A stretch of DNA of 64,000 bases, taken from contig CM020620.1 of NCBI GenBank assembly GCA_009829735.1, forward strand, positions 22,542,020-22,606,019, read 5' to 3'. The number at the start of each line of letters is the position of its first letter. Positions within the stretch are counted from its first letter, which is position 1. Source of the stretch: Pyropia yezoensis (taxonomy: Eukaryota > Rhodophyta > Bangiophyceae > Bangiales > Bangiaceae). The notes under the pieces are model-generated. The model was not told the DNA's origin. It was given only the letters and a program-made list of their open reading frames with translations, and searched no databases. The translations under genes and the position numbers were made by a program. Shown one piece after another: positions 20,779 to 64,000 of this stretch.

Positions 20779-20879
20779 GTTGGCTGACGATCCGTATGAC
20801 ACGGTCCAAGACCACCGTTCCTCTGAGACAGAGGGCCCCCTACACCCGGGTGCACCCGGAGGTAAAGTTTACCTCTATC

Positions 20880-20895
20880 CCCTGCTGCTCCACCA
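20880..20895 (-). promoter_or_regulatory. Primer-binding site of E1
   Basis: Element strand TGGTGGAGCAGCAGGG, two bases from the 5' LTR end. It starts with TGG, complementary to a tRNA 3' CCA. The same site is in E3 and, with one change, in E2. The tRNA species is not identifiable by eye. Confidence 0.7.
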
Positions 20896-20897
20896 AA

Positions 20898-28121: not shown

Positions 28122-28590
28122 TGTGGCAGTATTGACCCCCAGGTAGGGGGGCAACACGTGCCATGCAAAGGGCGGCAGGCCACTAGCCTGATCCGTTCCT
28201 CCCCCTGCATTTGGGTCCATATTCCCTAAGTTTGGGATAGTTAGCTTAGTAGTAAATCCAACTTGGATTTGAGGGTTTTGGGCATTTATCGTCTTGAATT
28301 TTCGTGTGGCCCGGTGGGCAGGTGCTGGGGTGGGAGATTCTGAGTGGCGAGATTCTGAGTGGACCCTGGGGGGATAAGGGGAGGGACTGCGGGGCTTGGC
28401 CCTGCGTCCCCGTCCCGACCAAGAAACTGTTGGACCACACACCATCCTCTTGTTTGTCCGTGGGGGGATTGCCCCACAACAGGGACAGAGTGTGTGCGAC
28501 TTGCACTTCTTCCGGTTCCCCCGACACGGGAGGCAGCCCTAGCACACCGCCCCAACTTGGGTGCCGTGTGTGCTAGTGGTTTTTGCCACA
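28122..28590 (+). repeat. 5' LTR of E2
   Basis: 469 bp, TGTGGCAGTA...TTTTGCCACA. Four substitutions relative to the 5' LTR of E1, including GGG for CTG in the GGGTTTT(CT)GCATT context. Confidence 0.95.
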
Positions 28591-28592
28591 TT

Positions 28593-28608
28593 TGGCGGAG
28601 CAGCAGGG
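28593..28608 (+). promoter_or_regulatory. Primer-binding site of E2
   Basis: TGGCGGAGCAGCAGGG, two bases after the LTR. One base differs from the E1 and E3 sites (TGGTGG). The 100 bp from here to gag form the leader. Confidence 0.7.
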
Positions 28609-28709
28609 GATAGAGGTAAACTTTACCTCCGGGTGCACCCGGGTGTAGGGGGCCCTCTGTCTCAGAGGAACGGTGGTCTTGGACCGTGTCATACGGATCG
28701 TCAGCCAAC

Positions 28710-30656
28710 ATGGCTAGTTCGGAGCCCCCGTCGTCCGGGGAGCACACGGGTGACGCACGTACTTCAGTGCCTTTGAATACTGGTGAGACACAGGTGGGTT
28801 TACCTGGGGTCGCAGAGGGACTAGAGGTCCCTCAAGCCAGCAGGACTGGAAGTACGGGCGGGCAAGAGGCCACCCCGACTGAGTCGGGAGTTCACTCGGG
28901 TGACACTTCTGATGTGGGTGGGCCGAAGTCTGGCCACCGTGTGGTATACTCAACGGGAACGTCCCAAGGGGTGAGGACTGTCCCCGCGGGTTCCACTCGG
29001 GTTGGAGCCAACTTTGGCTTGGAGTCGTCGCCAACTAGGCTTTCGGAGGACGGTGGACCTCCGTTGGTCGGCGATGGGCTCGCGCCCATGCCCCCGGTTG
29101 AGACCCCTGAGGAACGTGGTTACCCCTCAGGTGGACTCCCGGAGGCGGACCGAGACTCAACTGGAGTCGTCAATCCACTCCTCGCGGAAACTGTCCGTCG
29201 GGAGGCGACCAATGTGTTGCGGCAGACTTTGCCGGACCTGGTGGTCACGATGACGAATACTATTCTGAACCAGATTGTGGCGAGTTTGCCGGATGGCCTT
29301 AATTTCCAAACCGGATTGGGGCTTTCGAGCCCGCAGGCGCAGGGGGAATCCCCCCTTACGCCTATCTCCGGTCGCCCCGAACCGGGGGCGACCCCTGTGA
29401 CTCCCAACGAGGGAGCCACACCATACTCCGTGGGGCGTACGCCCCTAACGGGGGAGTTCCCCCCGGAAACGCCGGCGGCTACACCAAGCGCGCCGCGCCG
29501 GACTACAGGCACTGAGATTGAACTTACCCCAGTGCCACAGCGGCTGTTCCCTCAACGTGAGGTGCCGCCCAAGATCCAGGTAGCCAACCCGGTCTACCAG
29601 AGGATCTTTGACTGTGAGACCTACGCCCTCCACAACAAGTCGGTGGCGTATGGTCCTGACCAGGCCCGAGCCATGGGCCGGGCCAAGAAGAATGCACTTC
29701 ATTCTTTTGGGCACAAAGCGGAGTGGGACGGAACTCCCCCCCTCCGTGTCTTTGAGTTCCTACGTCGTTTCACAAAAGCCTGTGACGACAATGCCATAAG
29801 TGAAGGCATGGCTTTTTACATGCAACAGGAGTTTACGAAGGGCGACCTACGGACAGAACTTATGTCCGTCATGCCCAGCTCCTCAAGTGGAGGCGCTGGG
29901 GAGGTGACGTCCTATTTGGAGCTCGTCAACTGGTTGTTGAGAGCCATGGTTGATGAGGCAGCGTTGGCTTCTCAAGTCGAGGAGTTTACGCAAGCCCATC
30001 AGGAACAGGCGGAGGACGAGTTGTCCTTTGCGGAGCGAGTTCGTAAGCTCAACAATCTTTGTGGGTTTCTTCATCCACAAGCTGTGGTGAAGAGTCGGTT
30101 TGTGGAGGGACTCCATTGGTCAGTCCGGATGGAGACCCGGGAGCATAACACTGCCCGGGCGACCCTGGCCGAGTTGGCCAGGTTCGCCTATCGCAGAGGC
30201 GAGGCCTACCGCAAGTTGCGGGAGGAACAACGCCAGGAGCGTCAGGCCGAGTTGGCCAAGGAACGGGAGGAGGCGCGCCAGGCCAGAGAGTTGAGAGAGG
30301 CACGCCGAATCCGCAAGGAGAGGGTGGTAGCTGCCGTGGGAACTTCCCAGGGTATCCCTTCGTCTTCCCCAGTTGGGAAGACCCCTCCCGGAACGGACCA
30401 TCGGTGTTGGAACTGCAACTCCGATGGTCACTGGGCATATGATTGCCCCAAGTTGAGTAAACGCATCCAACAACTTGTTAGGAATGCGAGTAAAAAGTCG
30501 GCTACGAACGAAGTACGTTCACGCCGCGAGGGTGGGTCTCGACCGGTCGTTGCGGTCGCCACACCCTCGGCGGAGGAGGCGGACACGTCGTCCTCGGACT
30601 CGTCGTCTTCCTCCCCGCCCTCAGATTCGGACGCCAAGTCGGCGGGAAACGAATGA
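28710..30656 (+). CDS. gag: Gag capsid/nucleocapsid protein of E2
   Basis: 648 aa from ATG 28710 (MASSEPPSSGEHTG). Same layout as the E1 copy: disordered Pro/Gly/Thr-rich N-terminus, retrotransposon-gag helical region about residues 300-480, basic/acidic coiled-coil-like segment, CCHC knuckle at C566-C579, Ser-rich acidic tail. A handful of conservative changes separate it from E1 (for example a Met-to-Gln change in the helical region). The last codon and stop read GAATGA, and pol's ATG is inside it. Confidence 0.96.
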   Translation: MASSEPPSSGEHTGDARTSVPLNTGETQVGLPGVAEGLEVPQASRTGSTGGQEATPTESGVHSGDTSDVGGPKSGHRVVYSTGTSQGVRTVPAGSTRVGANFGLESSPTRLSEDGGPPLVGDGLAPMPPVETPEERGYPSGGLPEADRDSTGVVNPLLAETVRREATNVLRQTLPDLVVTMTNTILNQIVASLPDGLNFQTGLGLSSPQAQGESPLTPISGRPEPGATPVTPNEGATPYSVGRTPLTGEFPPETPAATPSAPRRTTGTEIELTPVPQRLFPQREVPPKIQVANPVYQRIFDCETYALHNKSVAYGPDQARAMGRAKKNALHSFGHKAEWDGTPPLRVFEFLRRFTKACDDNAISEGMAFYMQQEFTKGDLRTELMSVMPSSSSGGAGEVTSYLELVNWLLRAMVDEAALASQVEEFTQAHQEQAEDELSFAERVRKLNNLCGFLHPQAVVKSRFVEGLHWSVRMETREHNTARATLAELARFAYRRGEAYRKLREEQRQERQAELAKEREEARQARELREARRIRKERVVAAVGTSQGIPSSSPVGKTPPGTDHRCWNCNSDGHWAYDCPKLSKRIQQLVRNASKKSATNEVRSRREGGSRPVVAVATPSAEEADTSSSDSSSSSPPSDSDAKSAGNE

Positions 30657-33600
30657 CCGTTGGGGCTGGTCGTCCGAAGCTCACAACGGCAGCCTCGGCC
30701 AAGTCGGCCAGGAGGACGAACCAACCGTGCCGGATACTGCGGCGACCTAAGGGAGTCCGCCCACCTCGGGTAGGACTCCCCAAGAATGTAAACCCACGTC
30801 GGGTCATCGCGGTGCTGACGGGTGAGAACTTCCAGGTGGCTGGACGGGTGCAACTTGCCCCCGGCCGTGCATGCTGTACCCGTATCGTACTTGATACCGG
30901 GTCAGGAGCCTCCTTGATACGCAAGTCGCTATTACCAAAGGAGGTGAAGCTCCAACGCTGGAGGTCCAAAGCTGACCATATGATTGACATCAATGGTGGG
31001 GTACTTCCCATCGTTGGTGCCGTGACCCTACCAACTAGGTTGGGGACCCATGAGGTCGACGTGACCTATGGCGTAGTTGAGAATATATCGGTACCCCTGC
31101 TTCTGGGTACCCCTTATGTTGTTACACAAGTGCCTTTGATTTGTGGCCCTGAGTATTGGGTCAAGTTGATGAATGGGGAGACTATCCCCATCCTTGGTAA
31201 GGGAAAGTCTGTGGCTCCTGTGACAGTCTCACAGTCGAAGCCTGTTTGTTCGGTGAGGGAAAAGTTTACTGCTACCCTGCGTTTAGCCCGCAAAGTCACG
31301 TTGCCCCCCAAATCGGTGGCGCACGTTGACGTTGTAACTGATTATACGGGGAACGGGTTGGTGCACCCTCACCCCCGTCTTGCTCGCAAGCACCAAGTGC
31401 ATGTTGCCCTTGGCACGATGGACTCCAAAGCCGGAGTCCCGTGGAGGATCCAGGTGATGAACCTGAGCCCGACGCCCAAGTACTTCAAGTCGGGAGCCAA
31501 GTTCGGCTATATCGACCAACACGAGGGACCGGTAGTAGCGGTCACCCTCAACGCGGGCGCAAGTAGCGACCCGAAGTCCGGAAAGGAGAAGCACCAAGCC
31601 AAGTCGGCCGCCTCTCCTCGACCCCATGTGAACATGGAGGGTGTCCCCCCCAGGTTGAGGGTTCAAGTTGAACGCCTCTTGGACCAATATCACAAGTTGT
31701 GGGATGGTCAATTGGGACTCATGAGAGCCACCCAACACCGGATCGAGTTGAAGCCCGGTGCACCCCCTATACGCCAACAACCGTATAGGGGAGGACCTCG
31801 TTCAAGGGCCCTCGTTAAGGAGCAAGTTGCTCGCATGGAGGCCCTCGATGTGATCGAGGCCAGCAACGCCGAGTGGGCGAGTCCGGTGGTTATCGTCCCC
31901 AAAATTGATGGGACCCCCCGGTTTTGTATCGACTACCGTAAGCTCAACGAGAGCACGGTGAAGGACAGTTATCCCCTACCTAGGATGGATGACTGTCTGG
32001 ACTCTCTGGGGGAGGCAAACGTGTTCTCTACCCTGGACTGTAGCGCGGGGTACTGGCAAATTCCCATTGCCCCGGAGGACAGGCATAAAACTACCTTTAC
32101 CTGTCACTGTGGTACCTACCAGTGCAAGCGTCTACCGTTTGGTCTGTGTAACGCGCCGGCAACTTTCCAGCGCGCTATGGACATGATTCTGGCCGGAGTA
32201 CGGTGGCAGATCTGTCTTGTGTACCTAGACGATATCATTGTGTTCTCCCGAAGTCCGGAGGAACACATTGGCCATCTTGGCCAGGTGTTCAAGCTACTTG
32301 CTGACGCCGGTGTGTCACTGAAGGCGAGTAAGTGCCACCTCTTTACTCAAGAGGTGGAGTACTTGGGACATGTTGTCCATCCGGGGCGTCTCAGTGTTAA
32401 CGAGAAGAACTTGAGGGCCATTCGTAAGGCTCAGTACCCTCGGACCCAGACCCAGATGAGGAGCTTCCTCGGGATGTGTAACGTGTACCGACGTTTCACC
32501 AAGGGCTTCGCCAAGGTGGCGAAGCCGTTGAATGAGCTAGTGAGCTCAACGCTACCGAGGAACCTGCCTCCCCCAAGTCGGGTGGAGCAGGAATCCTTTG
32601 AGACTCTTCGGGACCTTCTGCTGAAGCCCCCCATCTTGGCTATTCCCAGGTTGGGAGGCCAGTACATCCTGGATGTGGACGCTAGCTACGACCAACTTGG
32701 TTGTGTGTTGCTTCAGCAGCAGCCGGACAAGGAGTACTTGCCGGTGGGATACTTTAGTAAGGGGCTGAACTCGGCCGAGAAGAACTACGGAGTCACCGAG
32801 TTGGAAGGACTCGCAGTGGTATGGGCGGTGACGTCACTTCGTGACTACCTGGAGGGTGAGAAGTTCCTCATCCGCTGTGACCACCGCGCGTTGCAGTTCA
32901 TCTTTAAGACGGACTGTACGAACACTCGTCTCAACCGGTGGAGCGTGCGACTGGCACCCTTCAACTTTGACATTGAATACCGACCTGGCAGGCAACATGC
33001 CCTTGCCGACGGCCTCTCTCGGGTACCTACCGAGGGGCTGGACACTAACCCAGTCGATGAGGACATCCCCATCGTGGGGGTAGTCACGCGCTCGGGTCAG
33101 GCGTTGAACCCCGAGGCGCCAGGGAACAAGAAGTACTTGCCCCTGTCCCTGGACGAGGTGGTGAAGGCCCAGGCCGAGGATCCCTTCTGCAAGTCGCAGA
33201 GGGATATACTGGATACAGTGGTAGAGACGCGTTTCTTTCTGGGAGACGATGGCCTCCTCATGAGGAGGGGGGTATTCCAGGGGACCGAACAACTTGTCGT
33301 CCCCGCATCCCTCAAGGACAGTATCCTTGAGAGGGAGCACAACGCTCCCACGGGTGGACACCTGGGGTCTAGTAAACTGCACCAGACCCTGAGGACCAGG
33401 TACTACTGGCCGTCCATGGTGGTGGACATCTACAGTTGGGTGGCTGCCTGCACAAGTTGTGCACAGAATCGTCTGATGGAACGGCGGCCTACTACGGCTA
33501 TGCTATTGTTCCCGGCCAAGGAGCCCTTCGCCGCGTTGGCGATAGACATCCTTGGGCCACTGCCCGTGACCGAGGAGGGCAACCAGTACCTCCTGGTCAT

Positions 33601-34636
33601 CTGTGACCGCTTCACGAAACTTACGCGAGCGATCCCACTGGCAGAGATCACGGCCATGTCGGTCGTGTCAGCCTTCTTAGATCACTGGGTTGCCGCGTAT
33701 GGCATTCCGGATAGTACACTATCGGACAATGGACCGCAATTTGCGTCTGTACTGTTTCAGGGAGTGCTGGATATGTTGGGGGTTAAGGCAAACTATGCCA
33801 CCCCCTACCACCCACAAACTAATGGGCAGGTGGAGCGCTTCAACAAAACTATTGTTAGGCAGCTGCGCCACTATGTGAGTGAGCACGTGAAGACGTGGGA
33901 CCAATACATTTCTATCCTTACTACTGCCTACAATTCGCAGGTTCACTCATCTACAGGGGAAGTACCCCTCGCTTTTGTGACCCCCCGTCGCGTGCGGTCT
34001 ATTGCCGTGCGGCGGTCGCTCCCAACTAGGGAGGATGGTGGCAGTACGCCTACTCCTACTGAGAGTAAGGCGGAGTTCGCCGCTAGGCTTGAAAACCTCA
34101 TCCCTAAAGTCAGGGCTGAGATGGACAAAGCACAAAAGCGCTACAAGCGTACCTTTGACAAAAAGGTGCGCAATGCTAAACATGTCCCCGAGCAGGGTGA
34201 CTGGGTGCTGGTACACTCGCACACCCCAACTGGGGGTAAGCTGGTATTCCAGACGAAGGGACCGTACCAGGTCCTTCGTACTGATGGGCGGCGCTTCACC
34301 ATCGAAAGTGACGATGGGGTCCGCACAGTCAACGGACAGGACGTGGTCAAAGTTGCACCACCGCCTGCAGGCGACCCAGCTTGGGCGCGTGCTTTGGAAG
34401 CGTGGCGCCTCCCCTCACTGCCTGCGGCCAAACAGGGCCCGCAGAAGTACGTGTTCGATAAGTTCATCGACCACGGATGGGATGAAGACACTGACCGCCT
34501 CATGTTGAGGGTGCGTTGGTTTGGCTACAAAGCCAAGGATGATACGTGGGAGTATGTGGAGGACCTTCCCGCTGAGAAGGTCCGGGCGTACTGTGCCCGG
34601 AATGAGATAGACCCTAACAGCCCTCCCTCAACGTGA
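30653..34636 (+). CDS. pol: Pol polyprotein of E2
   Basis: 1,327 aa, -1 frame relative to gag, starting in the ATGA overlap. Intact protease (D81TG), RT (YLDD 524-527), RNase H, integrase (D965, D1025, E1061; HNAPTGGH and CTSC zinc ligands) and chromodomain near residues 1270-1320. No frameshift or stop, so with gag this is a potentially autonomous copy. Termination-reinitiation at ATGA, or a -1 slip before it, would set the Gag:Pol ratio; no obvious slippery heptamer was noticed at the junction. Confidence 0.97.
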   Translation: MTVGAGRPKLTTAASAKSARRTNQPCRILRRPKGVRPPRVGLPKNVNPRRVIAVLTGENFQVAGRVQLAPGRACCTRIVLDTGSGASLIRKSLLPKEVKLQRWRSKADHMIDINGGVLPIVGAVTLPTRLGTHEVDVTYGVVENISVPLLLGTPYVVTQVPLICGPEYWVKLMNGETIPILGKGKSVAPVTVSQSKPVCSVREKFTATLRLARKVTLPPKSVAHVDVVTDYTGNGLVHPHPRLARKHQVHVALGTMDSKAGVPWRIQVMNLSPTPKYFKSGAKFGYIDQHEGPVVAVTLNAGASSDPKSGKEKHQAKSAASPRPHVNMEGVPPRLRVQVERLLDQYHKLWDGQLGLMRATQHRIELKPGAPPIRQQPYRGGPRSRALVKEQVARMEALDVIEASNAEWASPVVIVPKIDGTPRFCIDYRKLNESTVKDSYPLPRMDDCLDSLGEANVFSTLDCSAGYWQIPIAPEDRHKTTFTCHCGTYQCKRLPFGLCNAPATFQRAMDMILAGVRWQICLVYLDDIIVFSRSPEEHIGHLGQVFKLLADAGVSLKASKCHLFTQEVEYLGHVVHPGRLSVNEKNLRAIRKAQYPRTQTQMRSFLGMCNVYRRFTKGFAKVAKPLNELVSSTLPRNLPPPSRVEQESFETLRDLLLKPPILAIPRLGGQYILDVDASYDQLGCVLLQQQPDKEYLPVGYFSKGLNSAEKNYGVTELEGLAVVWAVTSLRDYLEGEKFLIRCDHRALQFIFKTDCTNTRLNRWSVRLAPFNFDIEYRPGRQHALADGLSRVPTEGLDTNPVDEDIPIVGVVTRSGQALNPEAPGNKKYLPLSLDEVVKAQAEDPFCKSQRDILDTVVETRFFLGDDGLLMRRGVFQGTEQLVVPASLKDSILEREHNAPTGGHLGSSKLHQTLRTRYYWPSMVVDIYSWVAACTSCAQNRLMERRPTTAMLLFPAKEPFAALAIDILGPLPVTEEGNQYLLVICDRFTKLTRAIPLAEITAMSVVSAFLDHWVAAYGIPDSTLSDNGPQFASVLFQGVLDMLGVKANYATPYHPQTNGQVERFNKTIVRQLRHYVSEHVKTWDQYISILTTAYNSQVHSSTGEVPLAFVTPRRVRSIAVRRSLPTREDGGSTPTPTESKAEFAARLENLIPKVRAEMDKAQKRYKRTFDKKVRNAKHVPEQGDWVLVHSHTPTGGKLVFQTKGPYQVLRTDGRRFTIESDDGVRTVNGQDVVKVAPPPAGDPAWARALEAWRLPSLPAAKQGPQKYVFDKFIDHGWDEDTDRLMLRVRWFGYKAKDDTWEYVEDLPAEKVRAYCARNEIDPNSPPST

Positions 34637-34747
34637 GGGAAGGCCGAGCAACAGTGCCAAGAGAGTGCTTCGAGTCGAAGTGGTACGCAGAGTGGCTTTT
34701 AACTACAGCCCTAACCCTCACACTCTCACAACAAAGGCAGCTGCCAA

Positions 34748-36691
34748 CTAGGCACGCATGCTAGACTCTCCCACTCCACGGCCCTCGCCCTCACGTGGAG
34801 GCGAGCGGCGAGACCCACGCCGATAACGGTCTCCACTCGTTGGAGGGGGCGGCGGCTCCAAGTCGGAACCGTCGCGCCCCTCACGGTCGCGCAAGTGGCG
34901 CCGACCGTGACCACTCTTCTGCCTGGTCTTGCGCGCAAGTTTGCGACGCAGACGCTGGACAGACTCCGTCTCCGACGGGGTAGAGGACTCCGAAACGGAG
35001 TAAGACAACTCGTCTTCCGATACGGAAGGAGAGCGCCGCGAGTGTCGGCGACGACGGCGAGGAGGCGAGTATGCCCGGCTCGCGCGACGTTTGCCACGCC
35101 CAAGTGGGGCTGGCTGGGGCATAATAGCCCCAATGCGAGCCAACTCGGCTGTCATAAACTCCGCCACCGACTCGCAACTCGCGGTCGCCACTGCAGTACG
35201 AACGCGCTCCTCAAGTTGAGGAGTCTCGGAACTCTGTAGGGTTGCGGTCGACGCGGCCAACCAGGAAATGGTGCGCACCAACGTGGTGATCATCATCTCT
35301 GAGGTTAGAGGCGTGGGCGGCAGCACCAACTTGGGGTATACCGTCAGGAGGGTGGCCCCCAAGTTGGGGGACACCGGGGTGGAAGACTCCACGGCCACGC
35401 TGATCGGGATGTTCCCGTGAGGTTGGAAAGGAACAGGAGGAAGCGGAGGGGCCCGCCGAGGTGGCGGTACCCGGGTGTAACTGCGACCCCGACTTGGGGC
35501 CCCCGCAGTGGGTTGAGTCATATGGTCATCATAGGACGGCACGGCCATAACTATGGGCTTGTCCGGGGGTGGCGCAGTGTGGCGATCCACCCCCGGGGCA
35601 TACGGGTAGTCCCCGATGCCCAACCCCTCTCGTAGGACCACACGGCCGTCGTGAAGTTCACGAGCGACCCACACGAACTGGCGAAGTGCGCCATCGTCCT
35701 TGGGCCCACGAGTGGGGCGGCGCAACTTGTGCTCAATGCTCTCCCACTCGATAAACTTATGGAGCCGGAGCATCTCCTCAAGTAGAGTGAGTTGTCCTGA
35801 TGAGCACCCCTCAGCAACTAGCTGAGGGGTGAGCTGTTCCAAACCTTGGAGGAGCCGGAGGGGGAGATGCCAGAGCATCCCCCGCCGCTGAACACAGGAC
35901 ACCCAGGTCGACATGACCTCGAGGAGCCACTGGGTGGCCAACATGGCCCACACCAGGTGATCAGGGGCAGCCGTCAACATGACGGAGCCGAAGTGGTCAA
36001 GCAACCGGGGCAACAACGCCGGGAACCCGTAGGGGACCTCAACTTGAGGCCACCACTCGGGCTTCTTCGGATAGTACTGCTCCTTACTGGCAGCAGACTG
36101 TTGAGGAAACTCAAGTTGAGCCGAGGTCACCAAGTAGGGACCTCGCCGGAAGTCTTTCTCCATCCGCACATCAAAGTGATGAGTGTGCGGATCGGCCTCG
36201 TGGAGGTACGGTGGGCGAGTTGCCACAGCGTCCCACGTGAAGGTCGGCAAGTCGCCGGGACCCGGGATAGTTCCCCCGCGGTCCACCATGGCCTTGGCAC
36301 GCTGAACGTCCTCAACCTCCTCATCGTCCAGGAAGGCAAACTGGTCCGTCCTGAAGCCGGCAGGGAACCCGACCCTACGGGGATACTTCTCCCGTAGGCG
36401 GTCCCATACGCGACCCATCGCTGCGCCAAGTCGGCCACAGCGAAGAACAGTCAACCCCTCCTCATAGAGAGGCCAAGCGGGGTAAAACCACCGCCCCAAG
36501 GCCTCACGCGGGACAACTTGTCCCGCCTCCGGGGGAGACCCCGCCGTCAACCCAAAGCCGGGTGACGCGGGAGTCCCATCCCCCGGAGCGATCGCGGAGC
36601 CCCCGCCGGAAGTCCCGGCGGGTGCTGCACCGTAGCTGGTGTCCTCCATACGCTCATCTAGAGAGTCCGTCTCCACTCCCGGGGTCGCCAT
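34748..36691 (-). CDS. Antisense third gene of the Ty3/Gypsy element (E2 copy)
   Basis: 647 aa from the ATG at 36691, the same length as the E1 copy and with few replacements (for example Phe/Tyr near the PAWPLYEEG motif). It runs against pol, with 111 bp between the two stops. Features as in E1: Gly/Pro-rich start, Trp/Leu-rich middle, Pro-rich linker, Arg/Ser-rich C-terminus from about residue 530. Its 338-bp upstream region ends at the purine tract, so a promoter in the 3' LTR or just inside it is likely. Possible roles are nuclear RNA binding or antisense control of gag-pol; neither is proven. Confidence 0.75.
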   Translation of the reverse strand: MATPGVETDSLDERMEDTSYGAAPAGTSGGGSAIAPGDGTPASPGFGLTAGSPPEAGQVVPREALGRWFYPAWPLYEEGLTVLRCGRLGAAMGRVWDRLREKYPRRVGFPAGFRTDQFAFLDDEEVEDVQRAKAMVDRGGTIPGPGDLPTFTWDAVATRPPYLHEADPHTHHFDVRMEKDFRRGPYLVTSAQLEFPQQSAASKEQYYPKKPEWWPQVEVPYGFPALLPRLLDHFGSVMLTAAPDHLVWAMLATQWLLEVMSTWVSCVQRRGMLWHLPLRLLQGLEQLTPQLVAEGCSSGQLTLLEEMLRLHKFIEWESIEHKLRRPTRGPKDDGALRQFVWVARELHDGRVVLREGLGIGDYPYAPGVDRHTAPPPDKPIVMAVPSYDDHMTQPTAGAPSRGRSYTRVPPPRRAPPLPPVPFQPHGNIPISVAVESSTPVSPNLGATLLTVYPKLVLPPTPLTSEMMITTLVRTISWLAASTATLQSSETPQLEERVRTAVATASCESVAEFMTAELARIGAIMPQPAPLGRGKRRASRAYSPPRRRRRHSRRSPSVSEDELSYSVSESSTPSETESVQRLRRKLARKTRQKSGHGRRHLRDREGRDGSDLEPPPPPTSGDRYRRGSRRSPPREGEGRGVGESSMRA

Positions 36692-37016
36692 GGCTCTCCC
36701 CAAGTTGGGGAGACACGCTCTGGCTATCGCGGCACGAGACCCGCCTCGAGTTGAGGGGGACTCGGATCGTGGGTATACGGGTGGCCTCCCCAGCGTGGGG
36801 CGGCCCAGTGGAAGGTGAAGGGGAGGTGGTGGTGATGGTGAAGTGTGAACCGAGGAGAGCAAGCTGCCGAGTGGGCAAGCTTGAGGAGAGGGGCGGTCAA
36901 CGTGACCGCCTCCACATCCCCGTTACGTACTCGATGGGGGACAGCAAGTCGCGCCCCCAACGCCGAGACGTGCGTTTACGCACCCCCTCACAGGGCCGAC
37001 CGGGTCGGTCGGAACT

Positions 37017-37029
37017 GAGGAGAGGGGAG
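37017..37029 (+). promoter_or_regulatory. Polypurine tract of E2
   Basis: GAGGAGAGGGGAG directly before the 3' LTR, identical to E1. Confidence 0.75.
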
Positions 37030-37498
37030 TGTGGCAGTATTGACCCCCAGGTAGGGGGGCAACACGTGCCATGCAAGGGGCGGCAGGCCACTAGCCTGAT
37101 CCGTTCCTCCCCCTGCATTTGGGTCCATATTCCCTAAGTTTGGGATAGTTAGCTTAGTAGTAAATCCAACTTGGATTTGAGGGTTTTCTGCATTTATCGT
37201 CTTGAATTCTCGTGTGGCCCGGTGGGCAGGTGCTGGGGTGGGAGATTCTGAGTGGCGAGATTCTGAGTGGACCCTGGGGGAATAAGGGGAGGGACAACGG
37301 GGCTTGGCCCTGCGTCCCCGTCCCGACCAAGAAACTGTTGGACCACACACCATCCTCTTGTTTGTCCGTGGGGGGTTTGCCCCACAACAGGGACAGAGTG
37401 TGTGCGACTTGCACTTCTTCCGGTTCCCCCGACACGGGAGGCAGCCCTAGCACACCGCCCCAACTTGGGTGCCGTGTGTGCTAGTGGTTTTTGCCACA
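37030..37498 (+). repeat. 3' LTR of E2
   Basis: 469 bp. Private changes include TTCTCG for TTTTCG, GGAATA for GGGATA and GGTTTG for GGATTG. The base after it starts ACAACTTGTGATATTGG, which is E3 pol sequence. Confidence 0.95.
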
Positions 37499-55281: not shown

Positions 55282-58200
55282 CTACGGGAGCACGCACCGC
55301 GCGAACACTACCGGGCCGTTTCTGAGTGCCAAACATACACCATCGGCCCCAGTAACGCAAACGTTGAAGACATTCGTCATGGAAGCAAAAGGGTGCACCT
55401 CACCAGAAGCAACATGCACGAGGAAGAGGGAACCGCGCGCGCACTGGACAAAGCAACGACCAGACCGATCCTCAAAAGGAGTCACCTTCGAAACAGCTCT
55501 GCCGAGGTCGAAAACATCTACAGCCCGACAATCACCATCAGTCGCAGGATCCCACAACCGCAGCGTTCCGTCCCACGACCCCGACACCACCCGCTGCACG
55601 GTCCCCCCACTCCCATCCCCGCCACCGCCCCCATCCACCTCCACCACACACACGCAGGTCACCGGACTCGTGTGACCCTCCAGCACCCGCATGCACTCCC
55701 CCCCGTCCACATTCCACACCCGCAGCGTATCGTCGGCTGACCCCGACACCACCCGCTGCACGGTCCCCACACTCCCATCCCCGCCACCGCCCCCATCCAC
55801 CTCCACCACACACACGCAGGTCACCCTACTCGTGTGACCCTCCAGCACCCGCATGCACTCCCCCCCGTCCACATTCCACACCCTCAGCGTACGGTCGGCT
55901 GACCCCGACACCACCCGCTGCACGGTCCCCACACTCCCATCCCCGCCACCGCCCCCATCCACCTCCACCACACACACGCATTGCACCCAATTCGTGTGGC
56001 CCTCGAGCACCCGCATGCACTCCCCCCCGTCCACATTCCACACCCGCAGCGTATGGTCAAAAGACCCCGACACCACCCGCTGCACGGTCCCCACACTCCC
56101 ATCCCCGCCACCGCCCCCATCCACCTCCACCACACTCACGCATTGCACGCTACTCGTGTGACCCTCCAGCACCCGCATGCACTCCCCCCCGTCCACATTC
56201 CACACCCGCAGCTTTCTGTCCCACGACCCCGACACCACCCGCTGCACGGTCCCCCCACTCCCATCCCCGCCACCGCCCCCATCCACCTCCACCACACACA
56301 CGCAGGTCACCTCTCTCGTGTGACCCTCCAGCACCCGCATGCACTCCCCCCCGTCCACATTCCACACCCGCAGCGTATGGTCGTCTGACCCCGACACCAC
56401 CCGCTGCACGGTCCCCACACTCCCATCCCCGCCACCGCCCCCATCCACCTCCACCACACACATGCATTGCACCAAACTCGTGTGACCCTCCAGCACCCGC
56501 ATGCACTCCCCCCCGTCCACATTCCACACCCGCAGCGTATCGTCGGCTGACCCCGACACCACCCGCTGCACGGTCCCCACACTCCCATCCCCGCCACCGC
56601 CCCCATCCACCTCCACCACACACACGCAGATCACCCTACTCGTGTGACCCTCCAGCACCCGCATGCACTCCCCCCCGTCCACATTCCACACCCGCAGCGT
56701 ATGGTCAAAAGACCCCGACACCACCCGCTGCACGGTCCCCACACTCCCATCCCCGCCACCGCCCCCATCCACCTCCACCACACTCACGCATTGCACGCTA
56801 CTCGTGTGACCCTCCAGCACCCGCATGCACTCCCCCCCGTCCACATTCCACACCCGCAGCTTACTGTCCCACGACCCCGACACCACCCGCTGCACGGTCC
56901 CCCCACTCCCATCCCCGCCACCGCCCCCATCCACCTCCACCACACACACGCAGGTCACCGGACTCGTGTGACCCTCCAGCACCCGCATGCACTCCCCCCC
57001 GTCCACATTCCACACCCGCAGCGTATGGTCGTCTGACCCCGACACCACCCGCTGCACGGTCCCCACACTCCCATCCCCGCCACCGCCCCCATCCACCTCC
57101 ACCACACACACGCAGGTCACCCTACTCGTGTGACCCTCCAGCACCCGCATGCACTCCCCCCCGTCCACATTCCACACCCTCAGCGTACGGTCGGCTGACC
57201 CCGACACCACCCGCTGCACGGTCCCCACACTCCCATCCCCGCCACCGCCCCCATCCACCTCCACCACACACACGCAGGTCACCTCTCTCGTGTGCCCCTC
57301 CAGCACCCGCGTGCACTCCCCCCCGTCCACATTCCACACCCTCAGCGTACGGTCGGCTGACCCCGACACCACCCGCTGCACGGTCCCCACACTCCCATCC
57401 CCGCCACCGCCCCCATCCACCTCCACCACACACACGCAGGTCACCTCTCTCGTGTGCCCCTCCAGCACCCGCGTGCACTCCCCCCCGTCCACATTCCACA
57501 CCCGCAGCGTATGGTCGTCTGACCCCGACACCACCCGCTGCACGGTCCCCCCACTCCCATCCCCGCCACTGCCCCCATCCACCTCCACCACACACACGCA
57601 GGTCACCGCACTCGTGTGGCCCTCCAGCACCCGCACACAATCCCACCCGTCAACATTACACACCCGCAGCGTACGGTCCGAGGACCCCGCCACGAGGAGT
57701 GGACGGCCGTTGTCGTCACGCACTACGCAGCTGCAGTACACCGAAGAGCTGTGCCCTGCCAGGATCGCCACTTCCTGCTGCAGCGGTAAGGCCCCGGCAT
57801 GCAGTAGATCCAGATATGGTGCTTCGAAGTCTGCTCGGGCACCTGCCATCAGATGACGTAAGTGGTCGTGCGTGACGTGACCAGCTGGCGCAGCGGCTCG
57901 CAGCCTCTCGGCGATCTCAAACGCCACCACCTGCAGGGCGGGTTGGCCAGTCTCAAACGCGGCCGCGAGACCCCCCTCCACGACCGTGGCGATCCGCATC
58001 AGCAGCGGCTCCCCAGACACCCGACAGTCGGCCCGGTAACCCACTGCCGTGTTCCCGCCGCGGTCGACACGCGACGTAATCCACCGCCAATCGCACAGCA
58101 GCCACACCAGCTCCTGCTGCAGCTGCTGCCCCCCCGCGTGCAGGTGATAGCACATAGCGTGTTCAATGTAGCCGTCGGCCGGCACGTCCCACCACCGCCG

Positions 58201-60624
58201 ACACTGAACGGCGGTCCCTCCACCGGGCGTGGGTGGCAGCGTGCCCCGAAGACGATCTCCGTACCCATCAACCAGCTTCTTGTGATGACCCTGCCGCTCT
58301 TCTAAGATCGGCACAAGACGGGCGTGAACCCAATCGACCACTAGATCGTGAAGGCCGACCACCATCGTGTCAGTCCCATCTCTCTGTCGCACTGTCACCA
58401 GCGATAAATTGGCAATGTCACGAAAATGTAACTCTGCGTCCTTCTCCTCCATATCCCACAAGGCCGCCAGTGCCGACAACGGTAGCCAGTCTTGCTTCCT
58501 TATCACACAAAGCTTCCTGTAGAGGCTAGCGTTCAGGCTCACGCCATCGTTGGGGTCTTCGTCGCAGAGCTGATCGTAGCTGGCTCGAAAGGCCGCCCAC
58601 GGCAAGCCGTCGGCCGAGGAAGACTCGCGCCGCAGCGCATCGCGATATCCCTCGGCAGCGGCCGCCCATCCCTTGGCGCACACCAACGACCCCAGCAGCG
58701 CTAAAGCAAGCGGCAGCCCCGCGGCCGCCTCAACCAGCTCTGCTAGCGCCCTTTCCTCAACCTCATTTCGGGTGCCCTGCAGGGACCCGTCGCGTCTAGC
58801 GTACGCCAGCAGCAACTTCTTCGCGTCCTGTCGCTGCCACTGTTGGACGCGCACGAGGCATTCGGAGCTGGCGCGACGCGCGACGATCCCTGACCTCGTG
58901 GTGAAGAGCAGACAGCAGCGTCCACATCGCGGGTCCCGCACGGCGCTTACACAGTGCCGCGCCAGCTCGTCACTCCAGCAGTCGTCCACGACGACCAAAA
59001 CGCTCTTGTCCGCTAGCGCTTCCCGCAGCCGATCAGCGGCCCTTTCAATGGACGGTGCCGTCACCTTCTCCTCCAATACGCAGGTAGCCACCGCCAGCAT
59101 GCACTCGATTGCACGAGCAGAGTCCGCCTTTCGGCCGAGCCTCACCCAGTACACACCTTCAGGGTAGAGCTTTCCATCGTCCGCGACCCGCGCAGCCACC
59201 AACATAGACACTGTTGTCTTACCGATGCCCCCCATTCCGTGGGTGCTGGCCACAATCGCGCACGTGCCCGTAGACGATGGCGTTGGCTCGCGCACCACAA
59301 CCTGCCATAGCCGAGCCCACGGCTGATGGGCGTCAGCTTCACTCCACGTGGCGATGGTGGGGTCCGACATACGAGGCAGAGCAACCAGGGAGCGCGCGTC
59401 CGCCAAAGCCTGCGCTTGCTCGTCCCGCGCGGTGGTCAAAAGATGGTGCAAGGTCGCGATACCCACGTTCGAGCCAAGACTGTCTCGCAGCTCCCTGACC
59501 GCCAATTTACATGCCGACACCTGTTTCCCCACCTTCAGGTCCGCGTCCCGGCCATGCGCGGGCACCGCTTGGCGCACACGGCCACCCAACGACAGAGACA
59601 GGTGCATCAGCTTCCCGGTCAGCGCGTCCAGGCTTCCAGCCAACGCGCCCATCTCCTTCAGCAGTGGCTCTGCATTGGCTGACTCTAATTCCCGCAGGCA
59701 ACCAATGCCTGGGAGCAGGGTCGAGCGCATCGTCTCCAGCAGGCGCCGGACTTCCTGTCGCAAATCCTCAGCAACGCCCCCCATCGCTGCGATGGACGCA
59801 CACACACGCACGCCTGTCAACAGCGTCCCAGCGACAAACGCCACGCACGCGCCCCCCGACGTAACCGCGTTAAACACATCGTCATTCAGCAAAGCAGTCA
59901 CCACCCCTACAGCCGGTATGAAGATATTCGACTCTTTGAGCCGTCCACCGACGGCGTCGGCCAGCGCCCAAACGCCGCCGACTCGTGGACGAGCAGAGGG
60001 GCTAGCCGCACTGCCCCCCCCCCCGCCACCATCCCCGAGGACTCGCTCCCACACCACCGTCAGGGGCACCGCGCGTATCACCATCTGGCGCTCCCACTCG
60101 TCCGCAACGTTCCGTGTCGCCGCCTCAAAGACGACTGAGTCAAACGCAGGCGGCGACACCGGCGACCGCACCGTGACCCTCCACCCCGCACCGCCCACGG
60201 CGGACGTGCCACTGTCCACGCACTTCACATGCACGTCGAACGAGCGAGTCCCATCGGTCGTGTCGCGGACCAGCGGACAAAAGCTCCAGCCCCGCTGGGC
60301 GCCACCCGTCGTTGGCAATGGGTCCCCCGGCACCGGCGCCTCCTCCCCGTCGACCGCCTCCCGCCAGTACAGGCCGCATTGCAGCCACACGTCGACCAAA
60401 GGCTTGCGGGCCGCACTCCAGGGCAGAATGCGCTTGAATGGGCCCACCATCTTGTCCCTGCGGCTCGGGTTGGCGACCAGACGGAGGCGCCCCGCAAACG
60501 GTAGCTGCAACGCCCGCCACCCCTGCATGTCGTCGTCGTCCGGCAGCCCATAGTCCCGTGGCGCCGCCGCCACGTGAGACGGCCCGCTACCGCCCGTGGA
60601 GAGCGCCTTGGAGCGACGGCCCAT
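55282..60624 (-). CDS. NLR-like protein: PH-like - helical - NB-ARC - 14 WD40 repeats
   Basis: 1,780 aa, one open frame, from ATG 60624. The frame stays open to a GTG at 61215, but that part encodes a poly-Gly tract and may be leader. Residues about 34-185 resemble a PH domain (ending FEAATRNVADEWERQM). 230-310 is helical with a hydrophobic stretch (VFNAVTSGGACVAFVAG), as in HeLo/MLKL-like signalling domains. NB-ARC: P-loop GMGGIGKTT 463-471, kinase-2 LVVVDDCW (D547, D548), LLFTTRSG, GLPL 636-639, LHDL 758-761 in the MHD position. WD40: unit 1 at 957-1001, then 13 near-identical 54-residue units at 1002-1703, and a 77-residue tail. APAF-1/STAND logic would be ligand sensing by the propellers, nucleotide exchange, oligomerisation and N-terminal signalling. 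Likely an innate-immunity or allorecognition receptor; this is inference. Confidence 0.85.
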   Translation of the reverse strand: MGRRSKALSTGGSGPSHVAAAPRDYGLPDDDDMQGWRALQLPFAGRLRLVANPSRRDKMVGPFKRILPWSAARKPLVDVWLQCGLYWREAVDGEEAPVPGDPLPTTGGAQRGWSFCPLVRDTTDGTRSFDVHVKCVDSGTSAVGGAGWRVTVRSPVSPPAFDSVVFEAATRNVADEWERQMVIRAVPLTVVWERVLGDGGGGGGSAASPSARPRVGGVWALADAVGGRLKESNIFIPAVGVVTALLNDDVFNAVTSGGACVAFVAGTLLTGVRVCASIAAMGGVAEDLRQEVRRLLETMRSTLLPGIGCLRELESANAEPLLKEMGALAGSLDALTGKLMHLSLSLGGRVRQAVPAHGRDADLKVGKQVSACKLAVRELRDSLGSNVGIATLHHLLTTARDEQAQALADARSLVALPRMSDPTIATWSEADAHQPWARLWQVVVREPTPSSTGTCAIVASTHGMGGIGKTTVSMLVAARVADDGKLYPEGVYWVRLGRKADSARAIECMLAVATCVLEEKVTAPSIERAADRLREALADKSVLVVVDDCWSDELARHCVSAVRDPRCGRCCLLFTTRSGIVARRASSECLVRVQQWQRQDAKKLLLAYARRDGSLQGTRNEVEERALAELVEAAAGLPLALALLGSLVCAKGWAAAAEGYRDALRRESSSADGLPWAAFRASYDQLCDEDPNDGVSLNASLYRKLCVIRKQDWLPLSALAALWDMEEKDAELHFRDIANLSLVTVRQRDGTDTMVVGLHDLVVDWVHARLVPILEERQGHHKKLVDGYGDRLRGTLPPTPGGGTAVQCRRWWDVPADGYIEHAMCYHLHAGGQQLQQELVWLLCDWRWITSRVDRGGNTAVGYRADCRVSGEPLLMRIATVVEGGLAAAFETGQPALQVVAFEIAERLRAAAPAGHVTHDHLRHLMAGARADFEAPYLDLLHAGALPLQQEVAILAGHSSSVYCSCVVRDDNGRPLLVAGSSDRTLRVCNVDGWDCVRVLEGHTSAVTCVCVVEVDGGSGGDGSGGTVQRVVSGSDDHTLRVWNVDGGECTRVLEGHTREVTCVCVVEVDGGGGGDGSVGTVQRVVSGSADRTLRVWNVDGGECTRVLEGHTREVTCVCVVEVDGGGGGDGSVGTVQRVVSGSADRTLRVWNVDGGECMRVLEGHTSRVTCVCVVEVDGGGGGDGSVGTVQRVVSGSDDHTLRVWNVDGGECMRVLEGHTSPVTCVCVVEVDGGGGGDGSGGTVQRVVSGSWDSKLRVWNVDGGECMRVLEGHTSSVQCVSVVEVDGGGGGDGSVGTVQRVVSGSFDHTLRVWNVDGGECMRVLEGHTSRVICVCVVEVDGGGGGDGSVGTVQRVVSGSADDTLRVWNVDGGECMRVLEGHTSLVQCMCVVEVDGGGGGDGSVGTVQRVVSGSDDHTLRVWNVDGGECMRVLEGHTREVTCVCVVEVDGGGGGDGSGGTVQRVVSGSWDRKLRVWNVDGGECMRVLEGHTSSVQCVSVVEVDGGGGGDGSVGTVQRVVSGSFDHTLRVWNVDGGECMRVLEGHTNWVQCVCVVEVDGGGGGDGSVGTVQRVVSGSADRTLRVWNVDGGECMRVLEGHTSRVTCVCVVEVDGGGGGDGSVGTVQRVVSGSADDTLRVWNVDGGECMRVLEGHTSPVTCVCVVEVDGGGGGDGSGGTVQRVVSGSWDGTLRLWDPATDGDCRAVDVFDLGRAVSKVTPFEDRSGRCFVQCARGSLFLVHVASGEVHPFASMTNVFNVCVTGADGVCLALRNGPVVFARCVLP
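55516..57629 (-). repeat. 13 tandem 162-bp coding repeats (WD40 units 2-14)
   Basis: The word CGTGTG(A/G)CCCTC recurs every 162 bp exactly, from 55669 to 57613, with no indels. Units are almost identical except at two clusters: the residues after GHT (SPV, SRV, NWV, SSV, REV, SLV, SAV), and the SGS-x-D-x-x-L strand (WDGT, ADDT, ADRT, FDHT, WDRK, WDSK, DDHT). Each unit contains a Gly-rich insert (EVDGGGGGDGS) not found in usual 40-43 residue WD40 units. Confidence 0.97.
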
Positions 60625-60908: not shown

Positions 60909-60988
<80 letters not shown>

Positions 60989-61215
60989 ACGATGACACCG
61001 CCGCCGACGATGACGACGAGTGCACACCCCGCCGCCGCGTCTACCACGCGCGCGTGCACGCCCACGGCCGTCGCGCACACGCACCCGCGCCGAGCGCGAC
61101 GACCGCCACCGTCGCGGGAACGCTTGCGACGCCCACCGCGCGGTGCCACGGGCGCCGAGGGGTGCGCGCTCCAAGTGGCCCTGTGCACGCGACGCGTGGG
61201 CTGGTGGGCCCACAC
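60625..61215 (-). promoter_or_regulatory. Leader or N-terminal extension of the NB-ARC/WD40 gene
   Basis: In frame with the gene but lacking an ATG. It contains the triplet repeat at 60911-60988 and Arg/Trp-rich low-complexity codons. A 5' UTR or promoter is more likely than protein; an upstream exon with its own ATG cannot be excluded. Confidence 0.4.
60911..60988 (-). repeat. (CCG/GGC) triplet repeat, 26 units
   Basis: Perfect run of 78 bp, 287 bp upstream of the preferred ATG of the NB-ARC/WD40 gene. It would encode poly-Gly if translated in the gene's frame. Confidence 0.95.
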
Positions 61216-62973
61216 ACACCCGGCACAGATGGGCGAGCAAAAAGAGACAAGATGGGGGCTCCGTGGCCCTACCCTGGGCCGTGTGCCCCGGGCGGTGGTT
61301 GGCGAGCACTGTCAGCGGCCCACCACCGGAGCGCCCAAGCATCAGAGACTGGCCGTCGCGCAACGCATCCCCCCCCCCCCAGCCGGCAGCAAAGGGTGTG
61401 TCGGCTCCCCACTCGGGCGGGGCGTTGCGGGCCACTTGGAATCAAGACGGGAGAGTCCTTGTTTGTCCTGTAGACGACACGAGCCCCGGCCGTCGCGAAT
61501 CCGGTCAGCGTACTGTACACAGCCATAATCGTCACCTTGTGAGATTTTGACAACGAGGGCCCCCTTTTGTTGACCTGCCGATCAGGCCACGATCGCCCTG
61601 TGAGACCTCAACGAGGTCTGCGTACGTTCGACATTGATGCCTTTTTCGATGTCGTGTGTTTGGAGGCAACGAAGACAACGAGAACACTATTGTGCATCCC
61701 CCAAAAAGTAGACGTGTCGCAGTCGTGAACGTGCAATTCGTGTGCACCACATGCTTGGCACGTGCGTGGAAGCTGTAAATTTTCAAGCAATTCGTGAGCA
61801 CTCGTGCACAATGGGTGACTCTCATTCGCTGCACCATATCGATCGCGAGATGGCTTCTCGTCCCAACCCCGTGTCCCTGCAAGAGCAGCGGAACATTGCC
61901 CAAGAGATGGAAGAATGGGGACCAGATCAGGCGACAGCACACCACCCAGGGAGAGGGGTGCTCTGTTCGTGTCTGGCCCGGAACGAAAAAAACATGAAGA
62001 CCCAGGACGGGCGCGACCCTAGCTCGCTCTGTGTGGCTCAGAACCTTTCTCCGGTCCAGCGGACAGAAAATTCCTTGGCAGGGAGGCCGATCGTGCACCA
62101 GTTCCTGCCGCAGTTGTGCACCCGAGAAAAACCACGTGCCTGCCTGGCCGCCGGGCTTCAGTGATGCCTGTGAGGCCAGCAGGAGCAGAGATGTGTGCTG
62201 ACTGACCGGCAGAAATCAGCCTCGGCTGAGATCGCGCCGTCCACTGCTGTTGCGACTCCAGGCCCTCCAGGGCCGCTGATTGTGCTTGGGATGCACGTGC
62301 TGATGTGGACCTTGCGTGACGCCTCTTAGTCTTTGACTGGTACTAAAAATATATCTTTATATCTCATCTTGCCGATGTACGCATGTACATGCTTTTGAAA
62401 AGAACTAAGCGCGTAGAAAAGGCAGCAAGACTCAAAGCAGTCTTCGTCGCACCAGGCTCACCGGTGCTGATTGGCCACTTGGGCCCGAAATGCGTGTTTG
62501 CATCCAAAACAATCCAAGGCACTGGGCTCAAGCGACCCGCTTCTGCCGCGTCTCTGGGCGCCCTGGGGCAGGCTGCGAAGTGGGCGGCTCAAAGTGCCTG
62601 ACCTGGCGTCAATCCACTCTGTCCGTGAGCAGGATGCTTCATTTCGTGGAGATCGCGCGGCCGGTTCGTCCTTCCACGGAGCCCTTCGTGACCACCCTGG
62701 AAGAGCACTACCTGCGGGTTGGACGTCGGATCCCGTGTGACGCAGCACAGCCTCTGCCAAACCGCGCGCTGGGGCGAGCGCGACGGTTATTAGAATTTAT
62801 TAATATTATGTCGCTGTATATTTTGCAAATTGGAAATTTGAAGAAAATCCGTAGTAGGTCAAGTTCGGTCGCTGGCGGTCGTGGCCGGTTCCTGGCCAAG
62901 TCGCCAGACCAAGTCAACTCGTGGACATTGGGTGTCGGCGCTGACGCGTTCAGCGTCCCTCCTCCATTCAAGC
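61216..62973. other. Intergenic region, no gene called
   Basis: GC-rich to about 61480, then of mixed composition. Overlapping unsupported frames lie on both strands at 61532-62164. An AT-rich segment at 62795-62860 precedes the transposase. No terminal repeat of the DDE element was recognised. Confidence 0.4.
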
Positions 62974-64000
62974 ATGTACCCTATTGCTATCCGATGGCAG
63001 GTCATCGAGAACCGGCGCCAAGGAAAATCATGGGCGTTCATTTTGGAGCACGTCGGGTGCAAGCTTGCAACTGCGAAGCAATGGTGGGCCAATTTCCAGC
63101 GTCACGGCTCCCCGTGGAACGATGATGTCATCCACAACAGGCATGCGGACGCCTCGGTCTTCAATCCAGAGTTTTTGGCGGCGCTGAACACCCTAGTGCG
63201 GTCCCACCCAGAAATGTTTCTTTGGGAAATGGAGGCAATATTCGGGAAGCTGGCGGACCTTCCTGGCTGGGAGCAGAGCTGGCCAGTGTCGACAAGCACT
63301 CTGTCTCGGATGCTGAACAATATCGGATTTTCGGTGAAGCAGGTCGAGCGACTGGCGCTGGAGAGGTCGCAGGCGTTGAGGGTGGCTTTTTGTCGGTTGT
63401 ACCGCCAAGTACCAGATCGTTGCATCGTCGTCCTCGACGAAACGCACGTGGCTGGTCAGGCCATGGTGCGCCGGCGCGGCTGGGCGCCCATTGGTCGACC
63501 TCTGGAAGCGCTTGCGCCGGACCCTCGGGCCCGCGCGCGCTTCTCTTCCACGGTGGCCATATCGTATACTCGTGGTATTTTGGAGCTCTTTGTTAACGAG
63601 GTTCCCCCTGCATTGAATGGTGATGATTTTGTTTTGTTTTGTACCAGCCTTGTGCGGAGAATGAATGCGTATCACCCTGGCTTGCCTTGGTCAGAGCAGC
63701 CCAGTGACTGCGTGGTGGTTTACGATAACGCCTCTGTTCACACTGCGTTTGCGGATGAGATTTTTGAAGAGAACGGGGTCGCTCGTATCCGTCTCTCCCC
63801 TTATTCACCCGACTTCTCTGCCATTGAGCCTGTTTTTAAGGACTACAAGCACGGAGTGCGCAGCTTGGTGTATTGGCATCCGCTGCTGCCTGATCGTATT
63901 GCTCATGTTCTCGCATTTTCTTCTATCTCTTTATCATCTATACAAGGCCATTATCGCGAGGCGCGACGGCAGGTGCTGCGCAACCTCCCCGAGATGACTG
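62974..64000 (+). CDS. Tc1/mariner-IS630-type DDE transposase, 3' end beyond window
   Basis: Open from ATG 62974 (MYPIAIRWQVIENRRQGKSW) through the last base, 342 codons with no stop. The N-terminal helix-turn-helix region (KLATAKQWWANFQRHG, STSTLSRMLNNIGFSVKQ) precedes a DDE_3 core: VVLDETHV (D155), RRRGWAPIGRPLE, VVVYDNASVH (D251), LSPYSPDFSAIEPVFKDY (E285; 33 residues between second D and E). The spacing and SPYSPDxxxIE motif are typical of IS630/Tc1 enzymes. No lesion is visible so far. A cut-and-paste transposase, probably in its own element whose ends are not identified. Confidence 0.85.
   Translation, partial: MYPIAIRWQVIENRRQGKSWAFILEHVGCKLATAKQWWANFQRHGSPWNDDVIHNRHADASVFNPEFLAALNTLVRSHPEMFLWEMEAIFGKLADLPGWEQSWPVSTSTLSRMLNNIGFSVKQVERLALERSQALRVAFCRLYRQVPDRCIVVLDETHVAGQAMVRRRGWAPIGRPLEALAPDPRARARFSSTVAISYTRGILELFVNEVPPALNGDDFVLFCTSLVRRMNAYHPGLPWSEQPSDCVVVYDNASVHTAFADEIFEENGVARIRLSPYSPDFSAIEPVFKDYKHGVRSLVYWHPLLPDRIAHVLAFSSISLSSIQGHYREARRQVLRNLPEMT

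Follow-up and report, generated by a model that had tools for sequence, protein, structure and literature searches.

A red-algal NB-ARC/WD40 gene with near-identical blades that vary at five fixed sites: a probable diversifying STAND receptor of Pyropia yezoensis

The locus and its reading frame

The window, a 64,000-nucleotide stretch of the Pyropia yezoensis genome, carries on its minus strand a gene that runs from ATG to stop at 55282..60624 as one open frame of 1780 aa. The minus-strand frame is free of stops from 61311 to 55285, and the ATG lies at 60624. A GTG start further upstream, at 61215, was rejected, because the intervening stretch holds a poly-Gly run over a CCG microsatellite, and because the NCBI gene model also starts at the ATG. 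The microsatellite (32 copies, window 60911-61006) is located ∼290 bases upstream of the start codon and reads as poly-Gly in the frame of the gene.

The NCBI model, I4F81_012125 (P0134, 804 aa), has the same start Met and is identical to the window protein over residues 1-787. After residue 787 it departs from the frame, re-enters in another frame at ∼57776 and terminates inside the stretch of WD40 unit 1. The intron so implied (approximately 57777..58263, minus strand) is probably spurious, since relatives (Porphyra P0001 and paralogues) stay alignable as protein across it, and it was rejected. P0134 stops ahead of the array of 13 WD40 units, hence the public model is without the sensor. Porphyra umbilicalis BU14_0093s0020 (P0001) is also 1780 aa long and 48% identical to the window protein over residues 1-860, and need not be its orthologue.

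The genome searched comprises 107.5 Mb, with contigs of 43.6, 34.3 and 29.4 Mb, and the database proteins that represent the same genes (P0015, P0016 and P0134) are from P. yezoensis. A search of the protein database for alleles of the window gene yielded two entries only: P0134, which is truncated, and P0135, which is diverged. No match was observed with Rfam at gathering thresholds, or with PADLOC at E 0.01 over residues 1-858.

Two further features of the window concern mobile elements. The stretches 7307-13561 and 14062-21366 are 99.3-99.5% identical, in inverted orientation, to 31244-37498 and 28122-35426, and hold mirrored 1380-aa frames (14855-18994, minus; 30494-34633, plus); the frame at 14855-18994 codes for a reverse transcriptase, RNase H and integrase of the retroelement type. 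A run of 500 N (13562-14061) lies exactly between the repeated stretches 7307-13561 and 14062-21366, and therefore the inverted arrangement may partly be an assembly matter. A DDE_3 transposase frame (62881-63999, plus; Pfam E 1.5e-12), ∼2.3 kb from the receptor start, runs off the end of the window.

N-terminal region and NB-ARC/winged-helix core

Residues 1-230 (59935..60624, minus) appear by eye to be mixed beta/alpha, could be aligned in 7 P. yezoensis sequences including that of the window, and were assigned to no family. The original prediction had placed a PH-like domain ahead of the core. This could not be confirmed: Pfam gave no PH match in the 7 members, the profile found none in the PDB, and hhalign to one PH domain gave 0.2%, in a sequence-only search that a divergent PH domain could escape, since such domains diverge far. 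More generally, the profile of this region returned nothing convincing from the PDB, and the N-terminal 444 residues of the 7 members gave no Pfam match better than E 0.014.

A helical-looking region follows (residues 235-440; 59305..59922, minus) and includes a hydrophobic stretch, residues 260-278 (59791-59847). When residues 1-460 of 10 proteins were scanned for their most hydrophobic 19-mer, it was located in this region in 10/10, with a mean Kyte-Doolittle value of 1.8-2.3. Its profile matched designed helical bundles (E 0.069 and 2.1) and apolipoprotein A-IV (E 7.1) only. A HeLo/RPW8-like output domain was considered in view of the helices and the conserved hydrophobic stretch; this assignment found no support in Pfam or the PDB and was left as a lead. 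We infer that the helical-looking region around the hydrophobic stretch is the likely candidate for the output domain.

The NB-ARC core announced by the original prediction is intact (residues 458-658; 58651..59253, minus; Pfam E 6.7e-24). It shows the motifs GMGGIGKTT, LVVVDDCW, LLFTTR and GLPLA, which we take to be the P-loop, Walker B, TTR and GLPLA motifs, and the winged-helix domain behind it (WHD, residues 700-765; 58330..58527, minus) ends in LHD, taken as MHD-like. Residues G463, K469, T470, D547, D548, R577 and G636 are invariant across 11 aligned sequences, and H759 and D760 are nearly so. As a single sequence the WHD matched the APAF-1-like PF21296 with E 3e-4, which is below the curated Pfam cut-off; with a profile of the 7 P. 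yezoensis sequences from NB-ARC to WHD, the best PDB match was APAF1 (E 4.9e-29), followed by plant NLRs. Taken together, these matches identify both an NB-ARC and an APAF-1-like winged helix.

Between the WHD and the WD40 array lie residues 766-956 (57757..58329, minus), which show conservation in the alignment of 7 P. yezoensis sequences and stand, by position only, in place of the HD2/APAF1_C of Apaf-1. Pfam gave no match in these 191 aa, to HD2/APAF1_C or otherwise. It likewise found no CARD and no TIR.

The WD40 array and its five variable sites

The C-terminal half carries 14 WD40 units. Unit 1 (57622..57756, minus) is diverged, with 45 aa, no Gly-rich loop and a mean core distance of 0.31 to the others. 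Units 2-14 (55516..57621, minus) are near-identical and span 54 aa (162 bp) each, with the similarity of the last one lost after codon 42. Thirteen consecutive near-identical units had been predicted; they were found, each of exactly 54 aa, with the diverged one ahead of them. TRF describes the array as 162 bp x 13.1 copies with 93% matches (55577-57693). A C-terminal tail of ∼77 aa (55285..55515, minus) may hold one or more cryptic closing blades, as judged by eye and by analogy with the cryptic blades of HET-E.

Among the 12 full units, 39/54 codons are identical in DNA and no pair differs at more than 8 of 54 amino acids, a level like the ∼85% internal conservation of HNWD repeats. The internal identity over core columns, unit 1 included, is 0.80 (our own measure, not WDSP), above the 0.7 threshold for highly repetitive WD40 proteins. 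Variation in the 13 units is concentrated at site 4 (S/R/N), site 5 (seven residues), site 7 (T/Q/I), site 35 (A/D/W/F) and site 37 (five residues), and lesser changes occur at sites 9, 10, 18, 24 and 50. The original prediction of a few fixed variable positions thus stands for sites 4, 5, 35 and 37, but site 38, its second residue after the D, varies in only 2/13 units (T to K), and site 7 had been missed.

The seven residues at site 5 derive from seven codons, and the neighbouring V6 codon never changes; D36 is likewise invariant between the variable sites 35 and 37. Constancy in such immediate neighbours speaks against a mutation-prone stretch. In addition, 15/55 informative site pairs show all four combinations (four-gamete test), a pattern that reshuffling of unit parts would produce, although recurrent change could contribute.

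Compared with randomly drawn sets of core columns, the five sites of the window array show the higher variability (p = 5e-5, the lowest value attainable with 20,000 draws; these random-set tests omit loop columns 13-29 and 51-54). Since the five sites were chosen on this very array, the fair test is provided by other arrays. Of 18 arrays collected, 15 have at least 6 units (C2_1.531M, C2_30.282M and C3_16.981M were dropped), which leaves 14 besides that of the window: 9 from this genome, 1 from Porphyra umbilicalis and 4 from database relatives (P0028, P0049, P0074 and P0083). The five sites were more variable than random core columns in 14/14 (p <= 1.7e-3), in a set that is partly related (C2_1.542M/C2_1.925M, C1_32.754M/P0074, C3_15.864M/C3_24.377M and P0028/P0049).

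The same five sites also form the more variable set in 112/112 other WD40 arrays with at least 6 units among 123 database hits, and in 95/112 of them at least 4 of the five are among the top six columns; the named ones of these arrays are, with few exceptions, bacterial or fungal. Variability at these positions alone is therefore a property of WD40 arrays; more informative is how strongly the five sites differ from silent change in the unit and from the remainder of the gene.

Amino-acid change exceeds silent change of the unit

Across the 12 full units, pN at the five sites is 0.51 and pS over the whole unit is 0.058, a ratio of 8.7 (6.7-12.6 in 300 resamples of units), whereas all other unit sites have a pN of 0.015 and a pS of 0.042. 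However, pS at the five variable codons themselves is 0.28, so that their own pN/pS is only 1.8. Because pS is raised at the five codons, the case for selection is strong relative to the silent rate of the unit and weaker site by site. The raised pS could reflect an older age of these codons, a counting bias in codons with multiple changes, or a mutational hotspot. All these estimates come from one genome and from counting methods rather than codon models, with units that are not independent.

The comparison was extended to the 10 of the 15 arrays for which DNA was at hand. The ratio of pN at the five sites to core pS exceeded 1, interval included, in 9/10 (60 resamples each), the exception being C1:32.75M. 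In the nine arrays other than that of the window, the five-codon own pN/pS was 0.7 in C1_32.754M, near 1 in C1_10.310M and C2_1.542M, 1.1-1.2 in C3_15.864M and C3_24.377M, 2.0 in C2_23.630M, 2.4 in C1_37.436M and 13 in C2_1.925M, and far above 13 in C1_36.370M (pS 0.002).

These data bear on the simplest alternative, namely that the array is young and was amplified from one blade, and that near-neutral or mutation-prone codons at free top-face positions have changed with no selection for diversity, while constraint has kept the other WD40 positions fixed. The variability of the five sites in all 112 comparison arrays, the own pN/pS of 1.8 here and of about 1 in four other arrays, and reports that recent blade amplification is common (PMC9218822) are in line with it. 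Against it stand the 8.7-fold excess over unit pS, which reaches 13 times core pS in another array, and the fixed codons 6 and 36 between variable ones, a pattern not expected of a mutation-prone stretch; nor would one amplification event explain why the arrays of young paralogues differ (see below). We therefore regard this alternative as unlikely.

Units are homogenised within several genes, and arrays of young paralogues turn over rapidly

Within-gene homogenisation, which the original prediction implies, was recovered when the nearest neighbour of each unit was determined in 13 of the 15 arrays (P0074 and P0083 were omitted as near copies of P. yezoensis genes), with the five sites and the loop left out. 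The nearest neighbours lay within the own gene for 121.3/172 units, against a shuffled mean of 12.7. Homogenisation is not general across arrays, since own-gene neighbours were few at C1:32.75M (3.5/13), C3:24.38M (1.5/13) and C3:15.86M (0.9/12).

At the DNA level, the window unit matches 12 places of its own array with 93-100% identity; at the two array ends the identity is 90% (105 bases) and 85% (96 bases). Outside the gene, no full-length match in the genome exceeds 78%, and shorter pieces reach up to 89% over 54 bases. Unit exchange between the window gene and its paralogues was sought in this genome and not found, and older exchange is possible. The Porphyra array has a consensus of its own: the mean distance is 0.07 and 0.09 within the two arrays and 0.23 between them.

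Three young paralogues on C2 (1.53, 1.54 and 1.93 Mb), taken here in place of alleles from different strains, are 87-93% identical ahead of the array, with a pairwise pre-array dS of 0.077, 0.104 and 0.116, and share 0, 1 and 0 five-site combinations. They carry 4, 13 and 13 near-identical units, where the count for the middle one includes one more diverged unit. Unless several of them are misassembled, the arrays therefore outpace the rest of the gene in turnover. Two of these genes (C2:1.53-1.54M) form a tandem NB-ARC/WD40 pair ∼10 kb apart, with 93% identity ahead of the array and 4 versus 13 near-identical units.

Turnover is not the only regime. When C1:32.75M was compared in register with P0074, the five sites differed at 6/65 positions and the core at 51/357, hence the sites are the more conserved. 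Fast turnover and conserved contact sites thus coexist among arrays. The reference differs from P0083 by 20 residues over 1730 aa at the same length; that array is not homogenised and is hence uninformative.

A housekeeping role would be compatible with part of these results: the protein could be a cell-death scaffold like Apaf-1 whose endogenous ligand is fixed, with each blade touching another part of one large partner. The NB-ARC/WHD is closest to APAF1, the 1780-aa Porphyra protein likewise has 14 units, and the contact sites of C1:32.75M are conserved relative to a relative. Yet the nearest paralogue compared, C1:37.44M, shares 0 site combinations with the window gene (12 and 9 combinations), and among the 32 NB-ARC places listed in the genome at least about 16, as counted by eye, show matches to WD40 units within the frame or next to it. 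A scaffold of this kind appears quite improbable to us.

The number or order of units in the reference could also have been collapsed or expanded during assembly. P0004 (source 'lgn') agrees with P0016, the protein of the C2:23.63M gene, at 667/667 aligned residues and has 2 units in place of 13, which is either a short-read collapse or a real short allele. The paralogue arrays could contain assembly errors. However, the assembly was built from PacBio long reads, BioNano and Hi-C data (PMC7423979), the window array, 2.1 kb long, keeps its frame open through every unit, and DNA identity over codons 1-42 is limited to two pairs of units (3/4 and 7/11). We judge an artefact of this kind very improbable for the window array.

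Comparison with known receptors

The genome proved to be that of a red alga, in agreement with the prediction that it was not fungal, and the closest counterpart of the array is fungal. As in HET-D, HET-E and HET-R of Podospora (HNWD proteins), a STAND core is joined to near-identical WD40 repeats (PMC1805685, PMC12222747, PMC4986451). In HET-D/HET-E the positively selected codons 7, 9, 25 and 27 occupy the propeller's top face on either side of consensus codons 8 and 26 (PMC1805685). If numbering on the HET-E-1 unit (P0050) starts two residues before GH, so that the consensus V and D become codons 8 and 26, the four selected codons correspond to columns 5, 7, 35 and 37. The HET-D/HET-E-like regime that had been proposed, high internal repeat identity with a few over-dispersed sites, therefore holds for the window gene down to the positions involved. 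For the HNWD proteins, too, over-dispersed codons at the same four blade positions and a proposed double propeller are described, and arrays were not recovered from short reads; a model of HET-E has two propellers clamped around the ligand (PMC12222747).

The window protein is nevertheless not an HNWD protein, because core and N-terminus differ: it has an NB-ARC instead of a NACHT, and no HET domain was found, as no Pfam family matched in the N-terminus. Its 13 units measure 54 aa each and include a Gly-rich loop, versus ∼11 units of 42 aa in the fungal proteins, and whereas the fungal genes are described as exchanging repeats, the window gene shows no between-gene unit exchange in this genome.

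With Apaf-1 and algal NB-ARC proteins the window protein shares an NB-ARC and WHD nearest to APAF1 and C-terminal WD40 propellers, which are predicted here; unlike Apaf-1, it has no CARD or HD2 detectable by Pfam. The blades of Apaf-1 are diverged, unlike the near-identical ones of the window protein. Among red algae, rhodophyte proteins with NB-ARC, WH, APAF1_C and WD40 have been reported (PMC8891106), and in Chondrus crispus 58 of 61 NB genes are NB-WD40 (PMC7145615). The latter share the red-algal architecture with the window gene; the portion of that report available to us does not mention near-identical repeats or selection, and 23/58 carry a TIR, which was not found in the window protein (PMC7145615).

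Repetitive propellers on a STAND ATPase are also known from cyanobacteria. Npun_R6612 (WRAP) has, like the window protein, 14 blades, all near-identical, which form two 7-bladed propellers in 2YMU (PMC6805158); it differs in having only 10 point mutations over the 14 blades, 6 of them at one position. Variable hotspot sites are described for highly repetitive WD40 proteins as a group (PMC5587647; also PMC6805158 and PMC9218822). The brown-algal LRR-ROCO and NB-ARC-TPR proteins are likewise candidate receptors with shuffled repeats, the LRRs with positively selected contact sites, but have one repeat per exon and alternative splicing, whereas the window repeats lie in one uninterrupted frame (PMC11378527). 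In the open-licence papers searched, we found neither homogenised repeats nor selected contact sites described for receptors of red algae. Both red-algal NB-ARC-WD40 genes and the fungal regime are known, and their union appears to be unreported in that literature.

A proposed model of a diversifying double propeller

In other STAND proteins the repeat domain keeps the core shut, and ligand binding leads to nucleotide exchange at the NB-ARC and to oligomerisation. We propose that the window gene probably encodes a red-algal STAND receptor (NLR/Apaf-1-type) with a diversifying double propeller. The 14 WD40 units would fold into a pair of propellers that hold the NB-ARC/WHD core closed at rest, probably as 7+7 blades, or as 7+8 if the tail is counted. 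Each blade would present about five residues (sites 4, 5, 7, 35 and 37) on the top face, as judged from fungal and solved WD40 proteins, and the five-residue sets of all 14 blades would together make up the ligand surface. Binding of a ligand would free the core, ADP would be exchanged for ATP, and the core would oligomerise and gather the N-terminal helical domains for signalling or killing. The similarity of the blades may be maintained by intragenic unequal crossing-over and gene conversion, which would also redistribute the variable codons; differences at these codons may be sustained by selection for new contacts, so that new specificities could arise fast.

Multicellular red algae hence show a regime known from fungal incompatibility receptors; it involves the same positions of the blade and was met in several genes and two genera. 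For a farmed seaweed this yields a defined list of candidate recognition genes, and it makes testable the proposal that repeat shuffling under selection is a general route of STAND-receptor diversification. The informative part of such genes is hidden by the public gene model, which cuts the array off, and probably by short reads, which shorten it. With respect to function, three P. yezoensis genes with NB-ARC and WD40, which have not been matched to the window gene, are up 1.5- to 2.2-fold in red rot (PMC6928737), and this rise points to a role in defence.

A bolder reading, which we offer as speculation and do not expect to hold, is that Bangiales own a generator of recognition repertoires independent of that of fungi, in which per-gene blade shuffling swaps the whole ligand surface within ∼0.1 synonymous changes per site of the switch half. 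The surfaces might then vary from strain to strain, or even among the cell lineages of a single thallus, and serve anti-oomycete immunity or self/non-self recognition.

The WD40 array is also met in another protein context. L033 (C1:36369697-36372954), an ankyrin-repeat protein with no match to NB-ARC, has a WD40 array behind its ankyrin block; the profile detects 7 near-identical units in this array, an eighth was recognised by eye, and further ankyrin-like sequence, also judged by eye, follows it. It shows the strongest excess at the five sites, with pN 13 times core pS, and the sensor cassette seems to exist outside NLRs.
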